Shown here: positions 2,055-57,372 of the stretch, in pieces
How the letters are laid out: each line of letters starts with the position of its first letter
Numbering within the stretch: the stretch's first letter is position 1
Assembly (NCBI GenBank): GCA_018434945.1
Contig: JAHDOI010000016.1
Span: forward strand, 62,001-126,000
From: Selenomonadales bacterium
GTDB lineage: Bacteria > Bacillota > Negativicutes > Sporomusales > UBA7701
Direction of reading: 5' to 3'
DNA: 64,000 bases
The notes under the pieces: model-generated
Told to the model about the DNA's origin: nothing
The model's input: the letters and a program-made list of their open reading frames with translations, nothing else
Databases searched by the model: none
Program-made: the position numbers and the translations under genes

Positions 2055-2083
2055 TGTATCTCTCCTCTTAGCCTGTTTAGGGG

Positions 2084-2201
2084 CAGGCCGTTGATGCCTC
2101 CGCAGGCTGCGTTGGTCCTGCGGGCGCTTGCTAGCGTACATCCGGGTACGCGTCGCTTCGCGTCCTCGGTCCGCCTTGCCTGCGAAGCCCTGAACGGCCT
2201 G
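2084..2201 (-). repeat. Dispersed palindrome, copy 1 (cassette A)
   Basis: Between ftsW and murG, with outer arms GCAGGCCGTT and AACGGCCTGC and tip GCGTAC-ccggat-GTACGC (on the element strand). The family has thirteen copies here. Element strand: left end about GGCCGTTnAGAAGnGCCCAG followed by ATGCAAGGCGCACCGG; right end about GAGGAGCAACGCCGCAGATG followed by GGCGCTTATCAACGGCC. The two ends are an imperfect inverted repeat, and the middle is one of four hairpin cassettes (A, B, C or D). Confidence 0.9.
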
Positions 2202-2240
2202 CGCACATTCCATTTTATAGAACGGTGGGCCGAAGGTTTT

Positions 2241-5739: not shown

Positions 5740-5862
5740 GATGCTGTCTAGTAAGCTCCAGATGCTAGGCGGACCGGAGGCTGACACCGGAAGCGTACAC
5801 GAACGTACGCTGAGGATGGCAGCCGAGGAGCAACGAAGCAGCTGGACTTAATAGACAGCATC
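5740..5862 (+). repeat. Dispersed 3'-flanking palindrome, copy 2 (cassette B)
   Basis: Six bases after the murF stop. The outer arms here are GATGCTGTCTA on the left and its exact complement TAGACAGCATC on the right, unlike the GGCCGTT/AACGGCC arms of most copies. The inner conserved ends (CCAGATGCTAGGCGG and GAGGAGCAACGAAGCAGCTGG) remain recognisable. The centre is the cassette with the hairpin AGCGTAC-acgaac-GTACGCT, shared with 41784-41898 and 42961-43080. Confidence 0.9.
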
Positions 5863-5867
5863 CCCTG

Positions 5868-8751: not shown

Positions 8752-8871
8752 GCAGGCCGTTCAGGGCCTTGCAGGCAAGGCGGGCCGAGGACGTGCAGCG
8801 ACGCGTACACGGAAGTACGCTAGCAAACGCCCGCAGGACCAACACAGCCTGCGAGGTCATCAACGGCCTGC
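8752..8871 (+). repeat. Dispersed 3'-flanking palindrome, copy 3 (cassette A)
   Basis: Seven bases after the spoVD stop. Outer arms are GCAGGCCGTT and AACGGCCTGC. The next block has CTTGCAGGC paired with GCCTGCGAG where most copies have CCAGATGC/GCAGATGG, so the inner arm changed on both sides as well. The central hairpin is GCGTAC-acggaa-GTACGC, as in copies 1, 7 and 9. Confidence 0.9.
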
Positions 8872-8877
8872 CCTATG

Positions 8878-13019: not shown

Positions 13020-13295
13020 GCTTTTATTATTTGTCTGCGGCCTTTGGCTTTAACAAATAAGCATCAGGCACAAGATATTGTGGTCACCCGTTGATCAGCC
13101 CCAATATATGCACCTCGACAGACAATTTATGACAGAAAATATTTTTTAATTTTTTTTGAAAATTGGCTACGGAGGCTCGAAATACTTGAGTTGGAAGTCC
13201 TTTTCCGGGGGTTGGCAGGATTGCGGAGGGACACTTATCTGGCACAAGGGGTTGTGGTAGAAGATAATGCGCGGATCGGATTTGTACAAACTAGA
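13020..13295. other. AT-richer non-coding stretch
   Basis: No open frame with a credible start is seen here. Base composition is lower in GC than the surrounding genes, and includes a T-rich tract at about 13140-13160. Nothing further could be assigned. Confidence 0.5.
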
Positions 13296-13400
13296 GGCCG
13301 TTAAGAAGTGCCCAGATGCAAGGCGCACCGGATAAGCAGACACACAACGCTTTAGCGTTGATGTGATCGCTTATACCCGAAAGGGTGCGAGCGCGCCGCG
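13296..13400 (+). repeat. Dispersed palindrome, copy 4 (cassette D, right arm missing)
   Basis: Starts GGCCGTTAAGAAGTGCCCAG and contains the long cassette with the hairpin AACGC-ttta-GCGTT and CCC-gaaa-GGG, but stops at GCGCGCCGCG. The usual right half is absent. Copy 5 begins 19 bases further on, so this looks like a tandem insertion or a deletion between two copies. Confidence 0.85.
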
Positions 13401-13418
13401 CAAATAGTTGAAGCCAGA

Positions 13419-13541
13419 GGTCGCTTAGGAGTCCCCAGATGCAAGGCGCACCGGAGGATGGCCCTCGACGGCGTACTTGGTTGCGTACGTCGAGTGGGCC
13501 ATCCGAGGAGCAACACAGCAGATGGGGGCTAATAAGCGGCC
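13419..13541 (+). repeat. Dispersed palindrome, copy 5 (cassette C)
   Basis: Seven bases after the stop of the 13548-14381 gene. Outer arms are GGTCGCTTAGGAGTCCCC and GGGGGCTAATAAGCGGCC. The centre is a long hairpin in which GGATGGCCC pairs with GGGCCATCC; the same cassette occurs only at 50086-50208. Confidence 0.9.
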
Positions 13542-13547
13542 GAGTTT

Positions 13548-16618: not shown

Positions 16619-16628
16619 TTGACGCAAA

Positions 16629-16804
16629 GGCCGTTCAGAAGGTGCCCAGATGCAAGGCGGACCGGATAAGCAGACACACAACGCTTTAGCGTTGATGTGA
16701 TCGCTTATACCCGAAAGGGTGCGAGCGCGCCGCGCCGCGTACTCGTATGTACGCAAGCAAGCGCTCTGAGGACCAACGCCGCAGCTGGGCGCTGGTGGGC
16801 GGCC
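16629..16804 (+). repeat. Dispersed 3'-flanking palindrome, copy 6 (cassette D, full length)
   Basis: Ends two bases from the stop codon of the minus-strand deacetylase. It spans 176 bases because the extra segment GATAAGCAGACACACAACGC and following hairpins is inserted before the GCGTAC...GTACGC tip. Left end GGCCGTTCAGAAGGTGCCCA; right end GCTGGGCGCTGGTGGGCGGCC. Confidence 0.9.
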
Positions 16805-16805
16805 G

Positions 16806-17630
16806 TCAGTTCTTGAAGATGCTTAGCCGTTCCAGGAGCGGGGCCGCGGTCAGCCGGCAGTAGAAGCTGCGGAAGGTTTTGCCGCTGTGGTAGATGGGGA
16901 TGCGCTCGAGGGCGTAGGGGTCGCTCTCTAAGCCGACCTGGCCGAAGCGGGTGGTGAAGGCCGCCCGGTAGCCCGCCTGGCGGACGAGTTCTTCGATCCT
17001 GAGGGTGTAGGCGCCGGTGGGATAGACGAAGTAACGGGGTTTGACGCCGAGGTGGCGCTCGAGTTCGGCGGCCGATGCGGCGAGGTCGGCGGCTGCTTCC
17101 GCGGGCCTGAGTTCGGTGAGTGGCTGGTGGCTGACGGTGTGGGAGCCGAAGACGAAGCCGTTTTTGTGCATTTCCCGCACCTGGTCCCAGGTCATGTAGC
17201 GGTCGTCGGCGCCGATGAAGCCGGTGATGAGGAAGATGGTGGCGGTGAAGCCGTATTTCCTGAGGATGGGGTATGCGTTGGCGTAGTTGTCGGCGTACCC
17301 GTCGTCGAAGGTGATGAGGACGGGCTTGGCGGGCAGGGCGCGGCCGTATTTGAGGTAGCCCATGAGTTGGTCGGGGGTGATGGAGTTGTAGCCGTTTTCG
17401 GCGAGATGGCGGATCTGGTCTTCGAATTCGGCGGGGGTGAGCGACAGGCCGTGGTCGACGGTGTCGATCTTGTGGTAGTTGAGGACAGAGACGTCGGTGA
17501 TTTCGAGCGGCAGGTGCTGGCGGCCGGCGACGGCGCTGGTGCCGGCGAGAGATGAGGCGAGGAGGACGAGGAGGAGTAGGGCGGCCAGGCACGCCAGGGC
17601 TGTGCGGTTTTTGAAGTAGCTGGTGTACAT
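16806..17630 (-). CDS. Secreted polysaccharide deacetylase
   Basis: Carbohydrate esterase family 4 protein of 274 residues, probably acting on wall or biofilm glycans outside the membrane. An N-terminal membrane or signal segment lies at about 12-33. The NodB domain has LITFDDGYADN (catalytic and metal Asp pair), SHTVSHQ (metal His pair) and a YPTGAYTLRIEEL C-terminal motif. The frame is open to 17690, but that part translates palindrome copy 7; the ATG at 17630 has AAGGAGAGG just upstream. Confidence 0.88.
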   Translation of the reverse strand: MYTSYFKNRTALACLAALLLLVLLASSLAGTSAVAGRQHLPLEITDVSVLNYHKIDTVDHGLSLTPAEFEDQIRHLAENGYNSITPDQLMGYLKYGRALPAKPVLITFDDGYADNYANAYPILRKYGFTATIFLITGFIGADDRYMTWDQVREMHKNGFVFGSHTVSHQPLTELRPAEAAADLAASAAELERHLGVKPRYFVYPTGAYTLRIEELVRQAGYRAAFTTRFGQVGLESDPYALERIPIYHSGKTFRSFYCRLTAAPLLERLSIFKN

Positions 17631-17670
17631 GCCTCTCCTTCCTCTCCCAAGTTTCATCTCGAAAACAATG

Positions 17671-17789
17671 GAATTCGTTAAAAAATCCATCTACGGCGTT
17701 GCTCCTGCGGGCGCTTGCTAGCGTACGCCCGAGTACGCGTCGCTGCACGTCCTCGGTGCGCCTTGTATCTGGAGCTTTTTAACGAATTC
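17671..17789 (-). repeat. Dispersed palindrome, copy 7 (cassette A, divergent outer arms)
   Basis: Thirteen bases after the stop of the YbaK-like gene. Outer arms are GAATTCGTTAAAAA and TTTTTAACGAATTC, perfectly complementary but unrelated to the GGCCGTT arms of other copies. The inner ends and the hairpin GCGTAC-gcccga-GTACGC are conserved. Confidence 0.9.
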
Positions 17790-17801
17790 GTATAAACCAA
17801 A

Positions 17802-29425: not shown

Positions 29426-29550
29426 GCAGGGCGTTCAGGGCCCCCAGATGCTAGGCGGCTCCGAGGACGCGAGCGCAGACAGTACACGGAAGTACGGCAA
29501 GCGAGCGCCCGCAGGAACAACAACGCAGATGGGGGTCATCAACGTCCTGC
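29426..29550 (+). repeat. Dispersed palindrome, copy 8 (cassette A variant); contains an MFS stop codon
   Basis: Outer arms GCAGGGCGTT and AACGTCCTGC pair with one G-U. The right arm contains the last codons and TGA of the minus-strand MFS gene, whose C-terminus reads AGR. Tip hairpin is AGTACAC-ggaa-GTACGG-like and more degraded than in the other copies. Confidence 0.85.
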
Positions 29551-35077: not shown

Positions 35078-35091
35078 GTTTCGAATTGCCG

Positions 35092-35213
35092 CGGTTGGCT
35101 AGAAGGCCCCAGATGCAAGGCGCACCGGAAGAGCGCGCTGCGACGCGTACTCGAACGTACGCTAGCAAGCGCTCTGAGGAGCAACGCCGCAGATGGGGCC
35201 TTATCGCCAACCG
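35092..35213 (+). repeat. Dispersed 3'-flanking palindrome, copy 9 (cassette A)
   Basis: Six bases after the namZ stop. Outer arms CGGTTGGC and GCCAACCG are complementary but differ from other copies. Tip GCGTAC-tcgaac-GTACGC; below it AGAGCGC pairs with GCGCTCT. Confidence 0.9.
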
Positions 35214-35218
35214 TTTTG

Positions 35219-41711: not shown

Positions 41712-41783
41712 ATATGTACCTCTCAGATTAGTACTTACCAACAGGCGGCCAGAAGGCTTCGGATTGATGAAAGGCGCTCAACA

Positions 41784-41898
41784 GGCGCTAGAAAGATTCA
41801 GATGCAAGGCGCACCGGAGGCTGACACCGGAAGCGTACACGAACGTACGCTGAGGATGGCAGCCGAGGAGCAACGCCGCAGATGGGCTTTATAGCGCC
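41784..41898 (+). repeat. Dispersed palindrome, copy 10 (cassette B); contains a kinase stop codon
   Basis: The outer arms GGCGCTAGAAAG and CTTTATAGCGCC are complementary apart from the central base. The right arm contains the last codons and TAA of the BadF-type kinase gene. A second partial left end (GGCGGCCAGAAGGC) at about 41745 may be an older fragment. Confidence 0.85.
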
Positions 41899-42860
41899 GT
41901 CTTATCGGACTTAAGATAGTCATATCCAATTTTTAGGGCTCCCATAACCGGCTCCGGCCCCGGCGGGAGAAGTTCGGCCTGGCCGGCGAGCAGGCCGGCG
42001 AGCCGCTTCGTCAGACCCGGGTTGCCGAGCAGAAGGCCGCCGTAGAGGGCCACAGGCACCGGACCGGGGCCGGGAAAGCCGCGGGCGATGACCGAGCAGA
42101 CGAGGCCGGCGAGTTCGACGGCGGCGTCGGCGAGGATGGCGGCGGCAAGTTCGTCGCCTTCGGCGGCGGCGTCGGCGACCGTCGTTGCGAGGGCGGCGAT
42201 ATCGGCTTTGGCGGCGGCGGGGCTGTAGATGAAGGCGATGAGGCCGGCGATGTCGGCCACGCCGAGCCGGGCGATGATCTTGTCGAGGAGGGGCGAGGGG
42301 ATGTCCCGCCCTTCGGCGGCTTTGAGGCCGCGGGCAATGGCCTGGCGGCCGATGTCGTAGCCGCTGCCTTCGTCGCTGACGAGGTGGCCCCAGCCGCCGG
42401 CGCGGATGATCTCGCCGCCGCGGGTGCGGCCGTAGGCGATGGAGCCTGTGCCGGCAATGAGGACGATGCCCTCTCCCCTGTCTCCCAGCCCGGCGGCGAG
42501 GGCGATGCGGGCGTCGCTGCCGACCAGGCAGGGACAGCCCAGACCGGCCAGGGCGCCTAGGAGAAGTTGGCGGTCGCGGTCGCGATCGGCGCCGGCCAGG
42601 CCGAGGCTTACGAGGGCGAGGTCGGCCCTGGCGAATCCGGCGGCGGCGGCGAGGTCGTCGACGATGCCACCGACGAGGGCGGCGAAGGCGGGCAGGCCGA
42701 TGGTGTGGTAGTTGGCGGCGCCTTTCTCGACCCGGGCCAGCAGACGGCCAGAAAGGTCGGCGGCGCAGGCGACCGTTTTTGTGCCGCCGCCGTCGATGCC
42801 GATGAGCCAGCGCATCCTCTCCCCCACCCTTCCGTGCGTTATTTCCACTTTATTTGACAT
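41889..42860 (-). CDS. BadF/BadG-type amino-sugar kinase (MurNAc/GlcNAc kinase-like)
   Basis: 323-residue ASKHA-fold kinase. The phosphate loop is LIGIDGGGTKT, then GSDARIALAAG, the adenosine segment IAGTGSIAYGR and GGWGHLVSDEGSGYDIG. Relatives phosphorylate GlcNAc or MurNAc. It is the first gene of the amino-sugar operon, so it could make MurNAc-6P for MurQ or GlcNAc-6P. The start is uncertain: ATG 42860 (AGGAAAGAG upstream) or ATG 42815, which gives the more usual N-terminus. Confidence 0.87.
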   Translation of the reverse strand: MSNKVEITHGRVGERMRWLIGIDGGGTKTVACAADLSGRLLARVEKGAANYHTIGLPAFAALVGGIVDDLAAAAGFARADLALVSLGLAGADRDRDRQLLLGALAGLGCPCLVGSDARIALAAGLGDRGEGIVLIAGTGSIAYGRTRGGEIIRAGGWGHLVSDEGSGYDIGRQAIARGLKAAEGRDIPSPLLDKIIARLGVADIAGLIAFIYSPAAAKADIAALATTVADAAAEGDELAAAILADAAVELAGLVCSVIARGFPGPGPVPVALYGGLLLGNPGLTKRLAGLLAGQAELLPPGPEPVMGALKIGYDYLKSDKTAL

Positions 42861-42934: not shown

Positions 42935-42960
42935 CCGCCGTTATTTTTTATAAAGCCGAA

Positions 42961-43080
42961 GGCCGTTCAGAAGTGCCCAGATGCAAGGCGCACCGGAGGC
43001 TGACACCGGAAGCGTACACGTACGTACGCTGAGGATGGCAGACGAGGAGCAACGCCGCAGATGGGCGCTTATCAACGGCC
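42961..43080 (+). repeat. Dispersed palindrome, copy 11 (cassette B); contains a stop codon
   Basis: Best-preserved copy, with ends GGCCGTTCAGAAGTGCCCAG and GGGCGCTTATCAACGGCC. The right arm contains the final codons (GGC CGT TGA) of the minus-strand carboxypeptidase. Tip AGCGTAC-acgtac-GTACGCT. Confidence 0.93.
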
Positions 43081-43884
43081 GCTTACCACTGAGAACCCGT
43101 AGTCGAGGAGCTTTGCAGCATCCCCCCACCGCTCATCATCGTTGAGCAGCACGACGATGAGCTGAACGCCGCCGCGTCTGGCGGAGGCCACGAGGCAGTC
43201 GCCGGCCGCCTGGGTGTACCCTGTTTTGACGCCGCTGGCCCCGGGATAAGACTTGAGGAATTTGTTGGTGTTGCTGATTCTGACGGGGCCGCGGTTCTTG
43301 AAGGGGACGGCGTAGTCGCGCGTGGCGACGATCCTGGCGAATTCGGGATTATGCAGAGCCTGGGCGGTGATGAGGGCGAGGTCTTTGGCGGAGCTGTAGT
43401 GGTTGTTGGGGTCGGGCAGACCGTGAGGGTTGGCGAAGTGGGTGTTGATGAGGCCCATCTGCTGGATTCTGGCGTTCATCAGGTCTACGAAGGCGGGCAC
43501 CGAACCGGCGATATGCTCGGCGACCGCTTCGGCGGCGTCGTTGCCCGATACGAGCATCAGGCCGTAGAGCAGGTCGCGGAAGCTGAGGCGGTCGCCGGCC
43601 CGGAGCTCGAGGCTTGAGCCTTCGCAACTGGCGGCACGGCCGCTGACGGTGACTAAGGAATCCGGTTTGCCCCGTTCCAGGGCGACGAGGGCGGTCATGA
43701 TTTTGGTGGTGCTGGCGGGGTACATGATGGCGTCAGGGTTGATGGCGTACAGTATCCGTCTTGTGCCGGCGACCATGAGCACGGCCGCTTCGGCGTCGAC
43801 TTTGGGGGCCGGTGGCGCCGCGAGGACAACGGTCTGGCAGAGAAGCACGATTATGGCGATCAGCGGTATGAGACGGCGGCGCAT
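43072..43884 (-). CDS. dacF: D-alanyl-D-alanine carboxypeptidase (PBP5/DacF family)
   Basis: 270-residue exported penicillin-binding protein that trims the terminal D-Ala of stem peptides. Signal peptide 1-22. Catalytic motifs: STTK in MYPASTTKIMTAL, SGN in LMLVSGNDAAEA, and KTG in SGVKTGYT. It lacks the C-terminal domain and membrane anchor of PBP5, so it may be soluble outside the membrane. DacF in Bacillus is spore-specific; expression here is unknown. Its last two residues and stop lie in palindrome copy 11. Confidence 0.92.
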   Translation of the reverse strand: MRRRLIPLIAIIVLLCQTVVLAAPPAPKVDAEAAVLMVAGTRRILYAINPDAIMYPASTTKIMTALVALERGKPDSLVTVSGRAASCEGSSLELRAGDRLSFRDLLYGLMLVSGNDAAEAVAEHIAGSVPAFVDLMNARIQQMGLINTHFANPHGLPDPNNHYSSAKDLALITAQALHNPEFARIVATRDYAVPFKNRGPVRISNTNKFLKSYPGASGVKTGYTQAAGDCLVASARRGGVQLIVVLLNDDERWGDAAKLLDYGFSVVSGR

Positions 43885-50034: not shown

Positions 50035-50085
50035 TTCGAGCTAGCTCGCAAAGCTGTAATGATTAAGGCCTTACTCGCATAGAAA

Positions 50086-50208
50086 GGCCGTTCAGAAGCG
50101 CCTGGATGCAAGGCGCACCGGAGGATGGCCCGCGTCGGCGTACTTGGTTGCGTACGTCAAGCGGGCCATCCGAGGAGCAACGCCGCAGACAGGTGCTTAT
50201 CAACGGCC
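50086..50208 (+). repeat. Dispersed palindrome, copy 12 (cassette C)
   Basis: 52 bases after the Nif11-type gene. Left end GGCCGTTCAGAAGCGCCTGG and right end CAGGTGCTTATCAACGGCC; the inner arm changed from CCCA/TGGG to CCTG/CAGG on both sides. Centre GGATGGCCC paired with GGGCCATCC. Confidence 0.9.
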
Positions 50209-50230
50209 GAAACCCCGAGGAGTGGATGGC

Positions 50231-57184: not shown

Positions 57185-57193
57185 AAACGAAGG

Positions 57194-57368
57194 CGGCCGT
57201 TAAGAAAGCCCCAGGTGCTAGGCGCACCGGATAAGCAGACACACAACGCTTCAGCGTTGATGTGATCGCTTATACCCGAGAGGGTGCGAGCGCGCCGCGA
57301 CGCGTACTCGGATGTACGCTAGCAAGCGCTCTGAGGAGCAACAACGCAGATGGGGCTTTATCAACGGT
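57194..57368 (+). repeat. Dispersed 3'-flanking palindrome, copy 13 (cassette D)
   Basis: Ten bases after the membrane-fusion gene stop, before its terminator. Left end GGCCGTTAAGAAAGCCCCAG and right end GGGGCTTTATCAACGGTC. Same long cassette as 16629-16804, with AACGC-ttca-GCGTT and CCC-gaga-GGG. Confidence 0.9.
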
Positions 57369-57372
57369 CTGA

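Follow-up and report, generated by a model that had tools for sequence, protein, structure and literature searches.

The 13 copies of one repeat in the window, as I call the whole stretch of 64,000 nucleotides analysed here (G000:C10:62001-126000, in the genome G000, hereafter the own genome), belong to what I take, with a probability of about 0.6, to be a non-autonomous family of small interspersed hairpins with two layers of movement, replacement of the interior and insertion of the whole element. The element reads as mobile and modular because its middle is swapped between copies and its youngest copies have duplicated signals at gene ends. A modular mobile element of this kind has hardly been described so far. 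All 13 copies of the original prediction were recovered:

Copy 1, 2082..2203, minus strand: core 2101-2184 with 19-base outer arms; cassette A1; core ends CGCAGGC/GCCTGCG, not CAGATGC/GCAGATG.
Copy 2, 5740..5863, plus strand: core 5759-5844; cassette B; no element detectable here in the relatives.
Copy 3, 8753..8872, plus strand: core 8772-8853; cassette A1; variant core ends.
Copy 4, 13294..13401, plus strand: left part only, with outer left arm, core, insert I1 and the start of cassette A (a truncated D).
Copy 5, 13417..13543, plus strand: core 13436-13524; cassette C, complete, with its own outer stem; one A-type element at the corresponding site of the relative G060.
Copy 6, 16628..16806, plus strand: core 16647-16787; cassette A2 plus insert I1 (D).
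Copy 7, 17669..17790, minus strand: core 17688-17771; cassette A1; outer stem unique, GAATTCGTTAAAAAG/TTTTTTAACGAATTC.
Copy 8, 29426..29550, plus strand: core 29445-29531; cassette G (CAGACA-GTAC/GTAC-GGCAAGCG).
Copy 9, 35091..35214, plus strand: core 35110-35195; cassette A1; best match of the covariance model R1.
Copy 10, 41780..41903, plus strand: core 41799-41884; cassette B; in G060, A1 within the same outer stem.
Copy 11, 42959..43082, plus strand: core 42978-43063; cassette B; in G060, another cassette plus insert I2 within the same outer stem.
Copy 12, 50084..50210, plus strand: core 50103-50191; cassette C; in G060, A2 within the same outer stem.
Copy 13, 57193..57371, plus strand: core 57212-57352; cassette A1 plus insert I1 (D).

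Every copy is a single long imperfect hairpin, about 125–130 bases in length and longer where inserts are present, in which an outer stem of some 19 bp is followed inwards by a core, a cassette stem and a GTAC-loop-GTAC tip. The conserved core reads CAGATGC-AA-GGCGCACCGGA on one side and GAGGAGCAACGCC-GCAGATG on the other; copies 1 and 3 have the complementary pair (C)GCAGGC/GCCTGCG in place of the CAGATGC/GCAGATG ends. The folds of three window copies, computed for both strands (six folds), lay 4 to 8 standard deviations below those of shuffled sequence. Among 60 aligned copies, standard pairs occupied 83.4% of the pair cells, versus 73.0% after shuffling and at most 39.5% after sliding, the covariation score was 0.288 versus 0.127 for shuffled sequence, and both sides changed in 32 of 44 pairs. 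The outer stem looks like flanking sequence and varies from copy to copy, yet it pairs within each copy, with a median of 16 Watson-Crick pairs and a pairing score of 11.7, as opposed to 5.3 when the arms are swapped between copies (133 copies). Compensatory changes preserve this outer stem.

With up to two mismatches allowed, 129 matches to the 20-base left core are present in the own genome, versus none for the reversed control, and R1, which was made from 60 own copies, finds at least 150 places there. The own sequence that was examined comprised 59 stretches and the window, 1.145 Mb or about 30% of the genome, with 132-133 usable copies. Taking the E-values of R1 as rough, the model has matches in 42 of 60 relatives (E ≤ 0.001), in 8 of 159 genomes sampled from the phylum, the own genome included (E ≤ 1e-6, strict filters), and at 31 places in a Geobacteraceae MAG (E ≤ 1e-4). 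In distant copies the core is retained and the tip is GTAC or GTAT; viral contigs gave no exact match to the right core. For stretch L079 (JARKQJ010000244.1; label Paludibaculum sp.), the six copies in the bin equal own copies in their match to R1, and these contigs are probably of this genus and wrongly binned. At position 7323 of L073, on the minus strand, lies a minimal copy without a cassette, the right arm of whose outer stem carries a different, two-hairpin insert.

The original prediction recognized four interchangeable cassettes, A to D, between the same ends. A tip of the form GTAC...GTAC, also foreseen there, was readable in 251 of the 262 copies from three related genomes (the own genome and the relatives G060 and G061). 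When the tip-side stem signatures of these copies were clustered they fell into 12 groups, of 149, 53, 16, 9, 7, 6, 4, 2, 2, 1, 1 and 1 members, and the pairwise identities of the 251 signatures were bimodal, as opposed to the single hump given by column-shuffled signatures. The cassettes are thus discrete and interchangeable types, as had been proposed, and not a continuous spectrum of central sequences. The scheme itself needed amendment. The largest cluster holds A1 (GAC-GC / GC-TAGC) and A2 (GCC-GC / GC-AAGC) together, into which A divides; copy 8 (29445), formerly counted as A, has a type of its own that is found again elsewhere (CAGACA-GTAC / GTAC-GGCAAGCGAGCG); the insert that distinguishes D from A measures 55 bases (141 vs 86) and not about 60; the ends are not the same in copies 1 and 3; and the genome holds further cassette types, E, F and H. 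The two-sided change between A1 and A2 is linked in nearly all copies of the three genomes and is no plain Watson-Crick swap.

At least four insert modules, I1 to I4, form further hairpins at a few fixed joints in the element. I1, the D insert, either follows ACCGGA on the 5' side or lies on the 3' side; I2 occupies three joints; I3 is found on the 3' side of all the main cassettes, inverted in B; and I4 stands before the tip in A and B. Nearly all placements are inside the element, with one possible free I2 in L079 (by eye); the remaining matches outside it are apparently chance or weak ones, or copies whose cores the script missed (by eye). Tips in the own genome have the form GCGTAC n GTACGC, and the loop is hypervariable, 42 copies with the same A2 stems having 31 different loops. 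Loops between GTAC and GTAC vary even among near-identical young copies (TGTGGGAC, TTTGGGAC, TTCGGGAC, TGAGGGAC and others), as if the tip of the hairpin mutated faster than the remainder. Outer-stem type and cassette type show no clear linkage (mutual information p = 0.073, n = 110, with the young subfamily described below left out).

That the interior is exchanged at fixed loci emerges from the comparison with G060 (the MAG of the JARKNV records) and G061 (that of the JARKPR records), both syntenic with the own genome, with flanks that are mostly 75–95% identical. The 133 own copies gave 73 comparisons in which both flanks were present in a relative; the relative's site held an element in the same orientation in 36, an element in reverse orientation in 8 and no detectable element in 29. 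Outer arms could be compared at 30 of the 36 co-occupied sites, the six sites without full outer arms or a strict match being dropped. Across these 30, outer-stem identity averaged 0.76, versus 0.51 for random pairs, and cassette plus inserts were equal at 6, versus 12% by chance, a generous count, since three of the six show differences in the lower stem (by eye). At the 12 sites where outer identity exceeded the 95th percentile of random pairs, cassette and inserts agreed in 4. In the window itself, copies 10, 11 and 12 carry B, B and C, and their G060 counterparts carry A1, another type with I2, and A2. Stem positions 6-19 are conserved and positions 2-5, beside the core, are more variable (26 pairs, 4 of the 30 having been left out), which indicates that the exchanged unit extends some 5 bp into the stem. 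Within the conserved positions there are 14 pair-keeping double changes versus 2.4 expected; single changes that break an outer pair between orthologues number 39.

The converse pattern is seen too: at W:41799 (in the window), L102:4225, L116:4969 and L136:842, interiors of 66 bases are identical, loop included, within outer stems that are only 0.29-0.46 identical. Groups with identical interiors number 5 among 117 copies in the own genome and 3 among 89 in G060, some of the stems being related (young subfamily left out). Outer stems kept around different cassettes at orthologous sites, together with identical interiors in unrelated stems, mean that exchange of the interior takes place at loci that themselves stay fixed. 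The replaced unit comprises core, cassette and some 5 bp of stem; the remaining outer stem is kept. The earlier suggestion that cassettes are swapped by recombination or nested insertion therefore holds as regards the swaps and the nested modules. The pair at 13296-13541, from which it had been drawn, does not bear it out; the evidence comes instead from different interiors in the same compensated outer stem and identical interiors in unrelated stems. The pair is a real tandem all the same, spanning 13294-13543: an old, truncated "A plus insert" copy, of which the left part is present (13294-13401), precedes a C copy (core 13436-13524). The C copy alone is complete, since of the two left arms it is the second that pairs with the right arm they share (GGTCGCTTA/TAAGCGGCC, by eye).

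Could different cassettes in two species arise with no exchange at all? They could if different members of the family had repeatedly and independently hit the same small sites, after stop codons and at terminators. The reverse-orientation elements indicate that independent re-insertion at favoured sites does happen, and the sites with no detectable element, the recurrence of the truncated-plus-full arrangement of the window tandem at three further sites in G060, and a strong positional preference are all in keeping with such hot spots. A home-made gene finder placed a single one of the 133 copies within a gene; in 97 of the other 132 the next gene points at the element, its stop falling at the hairpin foot, some 20 bases away from the core. 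GC-rich hairpins of at least 9 bp occur within 80 bases upstream of 40 of 133 copies and downstream of 27 of 133, as compared with 14 of 150 random intergenic places. A fresh insertion would, however, bring its own outer stem, so the sharing of stems counts against hot spots: at L142:10789, L149:9739, L157:8756 and L150:361, unusual outer stems are common to the orthologous sites, with their changes compensated, around interiors that differ. Identical interiors within unrelated outer stems also speak against repeated hits, and as the general explanation of the cassette differences I consider them unlikely.

Under exchange, the likeliest means is ectopic gene conversion, which would take place between dispersed copies through their common 20-base core motifs. 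Conversion would probably start with a break or a template switch at the tip of the extruded hairpin, which would account for the variability of the tip loop as well. Against conversion, nearest-neighbour distances between interiors are no smaller within the own genome than between it and G060, so that concerted evolution genome by genome is not evident.

The second layer of movement is visible in a young subfamily, class ii, recognized by its outer stem (CAGACTGG...) and represented by 14 own copies with both ends. Twelve of the 14 are flanked by two copies of the local intrinsic-terminator hairpin (by eye). When flank pairs were scored for 129 own copies (copies sharing a 70-base key having been dropped), 11 reached at least 19.5, versus a maximum of 14 for shuffled pairings. 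Nine of these 11 strong duplications belong to class ii and only two to others: L119:18177, which has another outer stem and lies at a terminator, and L151:14568, which has an ordinary outer stem and lies at an AT-rich palindrome. In most older copies a target duplication is not visible. Empty orthologous sites of L109, L117, L133, L151:13950 and L151:14568 (the last by eye) hold one copy of the hairpin or palindrome. The class ii left end also occurs in G002 (24 matches), G003 (3), G004 (12), G005 (17), G008 (2) and G012 (2), with no match in G001. For 20 such loci, 13 of 19 scored matches reach at least 14, with the reservations that four of the 13 are own copies already counted, that L265 just equals the shuffled maximum of 14 and that one locus is counted twice among the 19. 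Insertion in the young subfamily takes place next to an intrinsic terminator or another palindrome, and the entire palindrome is duplicated. The right junction is near-exact, the left tail varies from 5 to about 20 bases, and the duplication measures 14-41 bases. The insertions would be made by an enzyme acting in trans. Tentatively, the family may represent a kind of bacterial mobile element not recognised before, a hairpin defined by its structure that inserts beside a terminator by copying all of it to the far side of the element, and whose resident copies serve as sockets, continually re-plugged by copy replacement from a genome-wide library of discrete hairpin cassettes and nested modules.

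Two neighbouring arrangements deserve mention. At L142:16200-16250 (G000:C72) a hairpin consisting of the outer stem only (CAGGATGGTGAGAAAG|GGCCTTTATCGCCAGACTG), with no core or cassette, stands right after a terminator (L142:16224); it is either an unfilled socket or what is left of an element whose interior was exactly lost. At L132:1560 (G000:C53) the element adjoins a terminator, which is followed by a T-box-like GGTACC motif.

A SINE-like retroelement, whose RNA, in the strand as written, is reverse-transcribed at the terminator and whose cassettes are exchanged by template switching, would predict a 3' end that is exact, a 5' end that varies and target duplications of differing length. 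The junctions just described, near-exact on the right and ragged on the left, with duplications of up to 41 bases, agree with this. So does the outer stem, where G.U pairs on the strand as written far outnumber A.C (127:22, or 59:17 with similar stems removed) in every gene context. A function in flanking mRNA was rejected as the cause of this bias, which is equal where the strand lies outside the mRNA of its neighbours (-- contexts, 66:8; ++ contexts, 19:4). By contrast, the interior alone folds no better on the strand as written (46 vs 85), and the strand evidence comes entirely from the outer stem, since interior folding energy shows the opposite or nothing. Neither does a promoter inside or before the element recommend itself: there is no positioned -10 box, just a T-rich stretch 29-37 bases upstream. 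Finally, RVT_1 is absent from the class ii carriers G003 (87% complete), G004 and G005 (87% complete) and from the element-rich genomes G001 and G013. A SINE-like origin thus appears rather improbable.

The other candidate enzymes fared no better. RVT_1, Y1_Tnp, DUF772 (presumably the IS1182/IS5-type transposase) and IS110 were each considered as the partner, and none tracks the element or its young subfamily; DUF772 and IS110 are absent from the own genome. The proposal that a protein or RNA might recognize each cassette found no candidate. An autonomous version with the same left end was likewise sought, and in the scanned stretches of the own genome, G060, G061 and the named records the class ii left end never occurs without the core. 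For a REP-like element moved on its folded single strand by a Y1 (HUH) transposase, one could cite the one-strand bias of the outer stem, the palindromes and the intergenic position; but Y1_Tnp is not found in G002 and G003, which hold at least 56 copies each, the own genome has a weak match only, and clear target duplications are present, which HUH transposition of this type is not known to leave. Such a mover is therefore very improbable. Equally hard to credit is a family of cis-regulatory elements or small-RNA genes diverged in place, which would fit the strong structure, the compensatory change at each locus and the fixed position beside stop codons, but not the discrete cassettes common to unrelated loci and three species, nor a strand bias independent of the direction of neighbouring genes, nor the identical interiors at unrelated loci, which refute local mutation as the origin of the cassettes. 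The element may still have a role as an RNA.

Small dispersed hairpins are common in bacteria, and how they move and why they keep their shape is mostly obscure. The present family offers young insertions with clean target duplications, unoccupied orthologous sites, and dozens of orthologous loci at which interior exchange is naturally recorded, so that both mobility and exchange can be put to the test.

No match over the gathering score was obtained for the window with Rfam, and the matches at E ≤ 5 in L109, L148 and L149 fall outside the element copies. One of them, to STnc490 at L109:15297-15405 near a contig end (55.7 bits, gathering score 56), is a separate sequence 5 kb from the element, which I take to be probably the 5' end of an IS200-like element. 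As to mobile elements, the family resembles MITEs in being short, non-coding, bounded by terminal inverted repeats and present in many copies, with target duplication in the young subfamily. It differs from them in that its "terminal repeats" vary freely with compensation rather than forming a conserved transposase site, and in that its duplication is an entire palindrome of 14–41 bases; no parental transposon was found, and in the stretches scanned the terminal repeats were not shared with an autonomous transposon. The attC sites of integrons are imperfect hairpins whose structure is conserved while the sequence, and the terminal part in particular, is variable, features that the present element shares; the copies inspected, however, do not lie beside an integrase or gene cassettes and have no attC boxes by eye. 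With REP/BIME sequences and TnpA_REP it has in common intergenic palindromes near gene ends and a mosaic arrangement. REP sequences measure 20-40 bp according to the consulted part of PMC3733652. The present element, at about 125 bases and more, is longer and is without a Y1 partner.

The accessible text of the literature, PMC2700814, PMC2996986 and PMC2267715 included, contained no account of such an element exchanging cassettes or duplicating terminators. The nearest description found, within the portion available, is that of 24 predicted short RNA elements in the Geobacter metallireducens genome paper of 2009 (PMC2700814, Additional file 4 Figure S1), which are likewise intergenic, multicopy hairpins with a central palindrome. 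What could be seen of that paper describes no cassette types, exchange, target duplication or link with Negativicutes. The published palindrome, GRCGTAGCGCTGCTACGCC, does not occur in the window copies; tips in the own genome have the GCGTAC n GTACGC form instead. The element on contig L097 of the Geobacteraceae MAG, however, has the exact 20-base left core of the present family, and its tip, read on the other strand, equals GRCGTAGCGCTGCTACGCC at 18 of 19 positions (by eye). As far as the consulted part of PMC2700814 allows the comparison, an uncharacterised "short RNA" family of Geobacter would in this way be tied to a widespread element of the Negativicutes.
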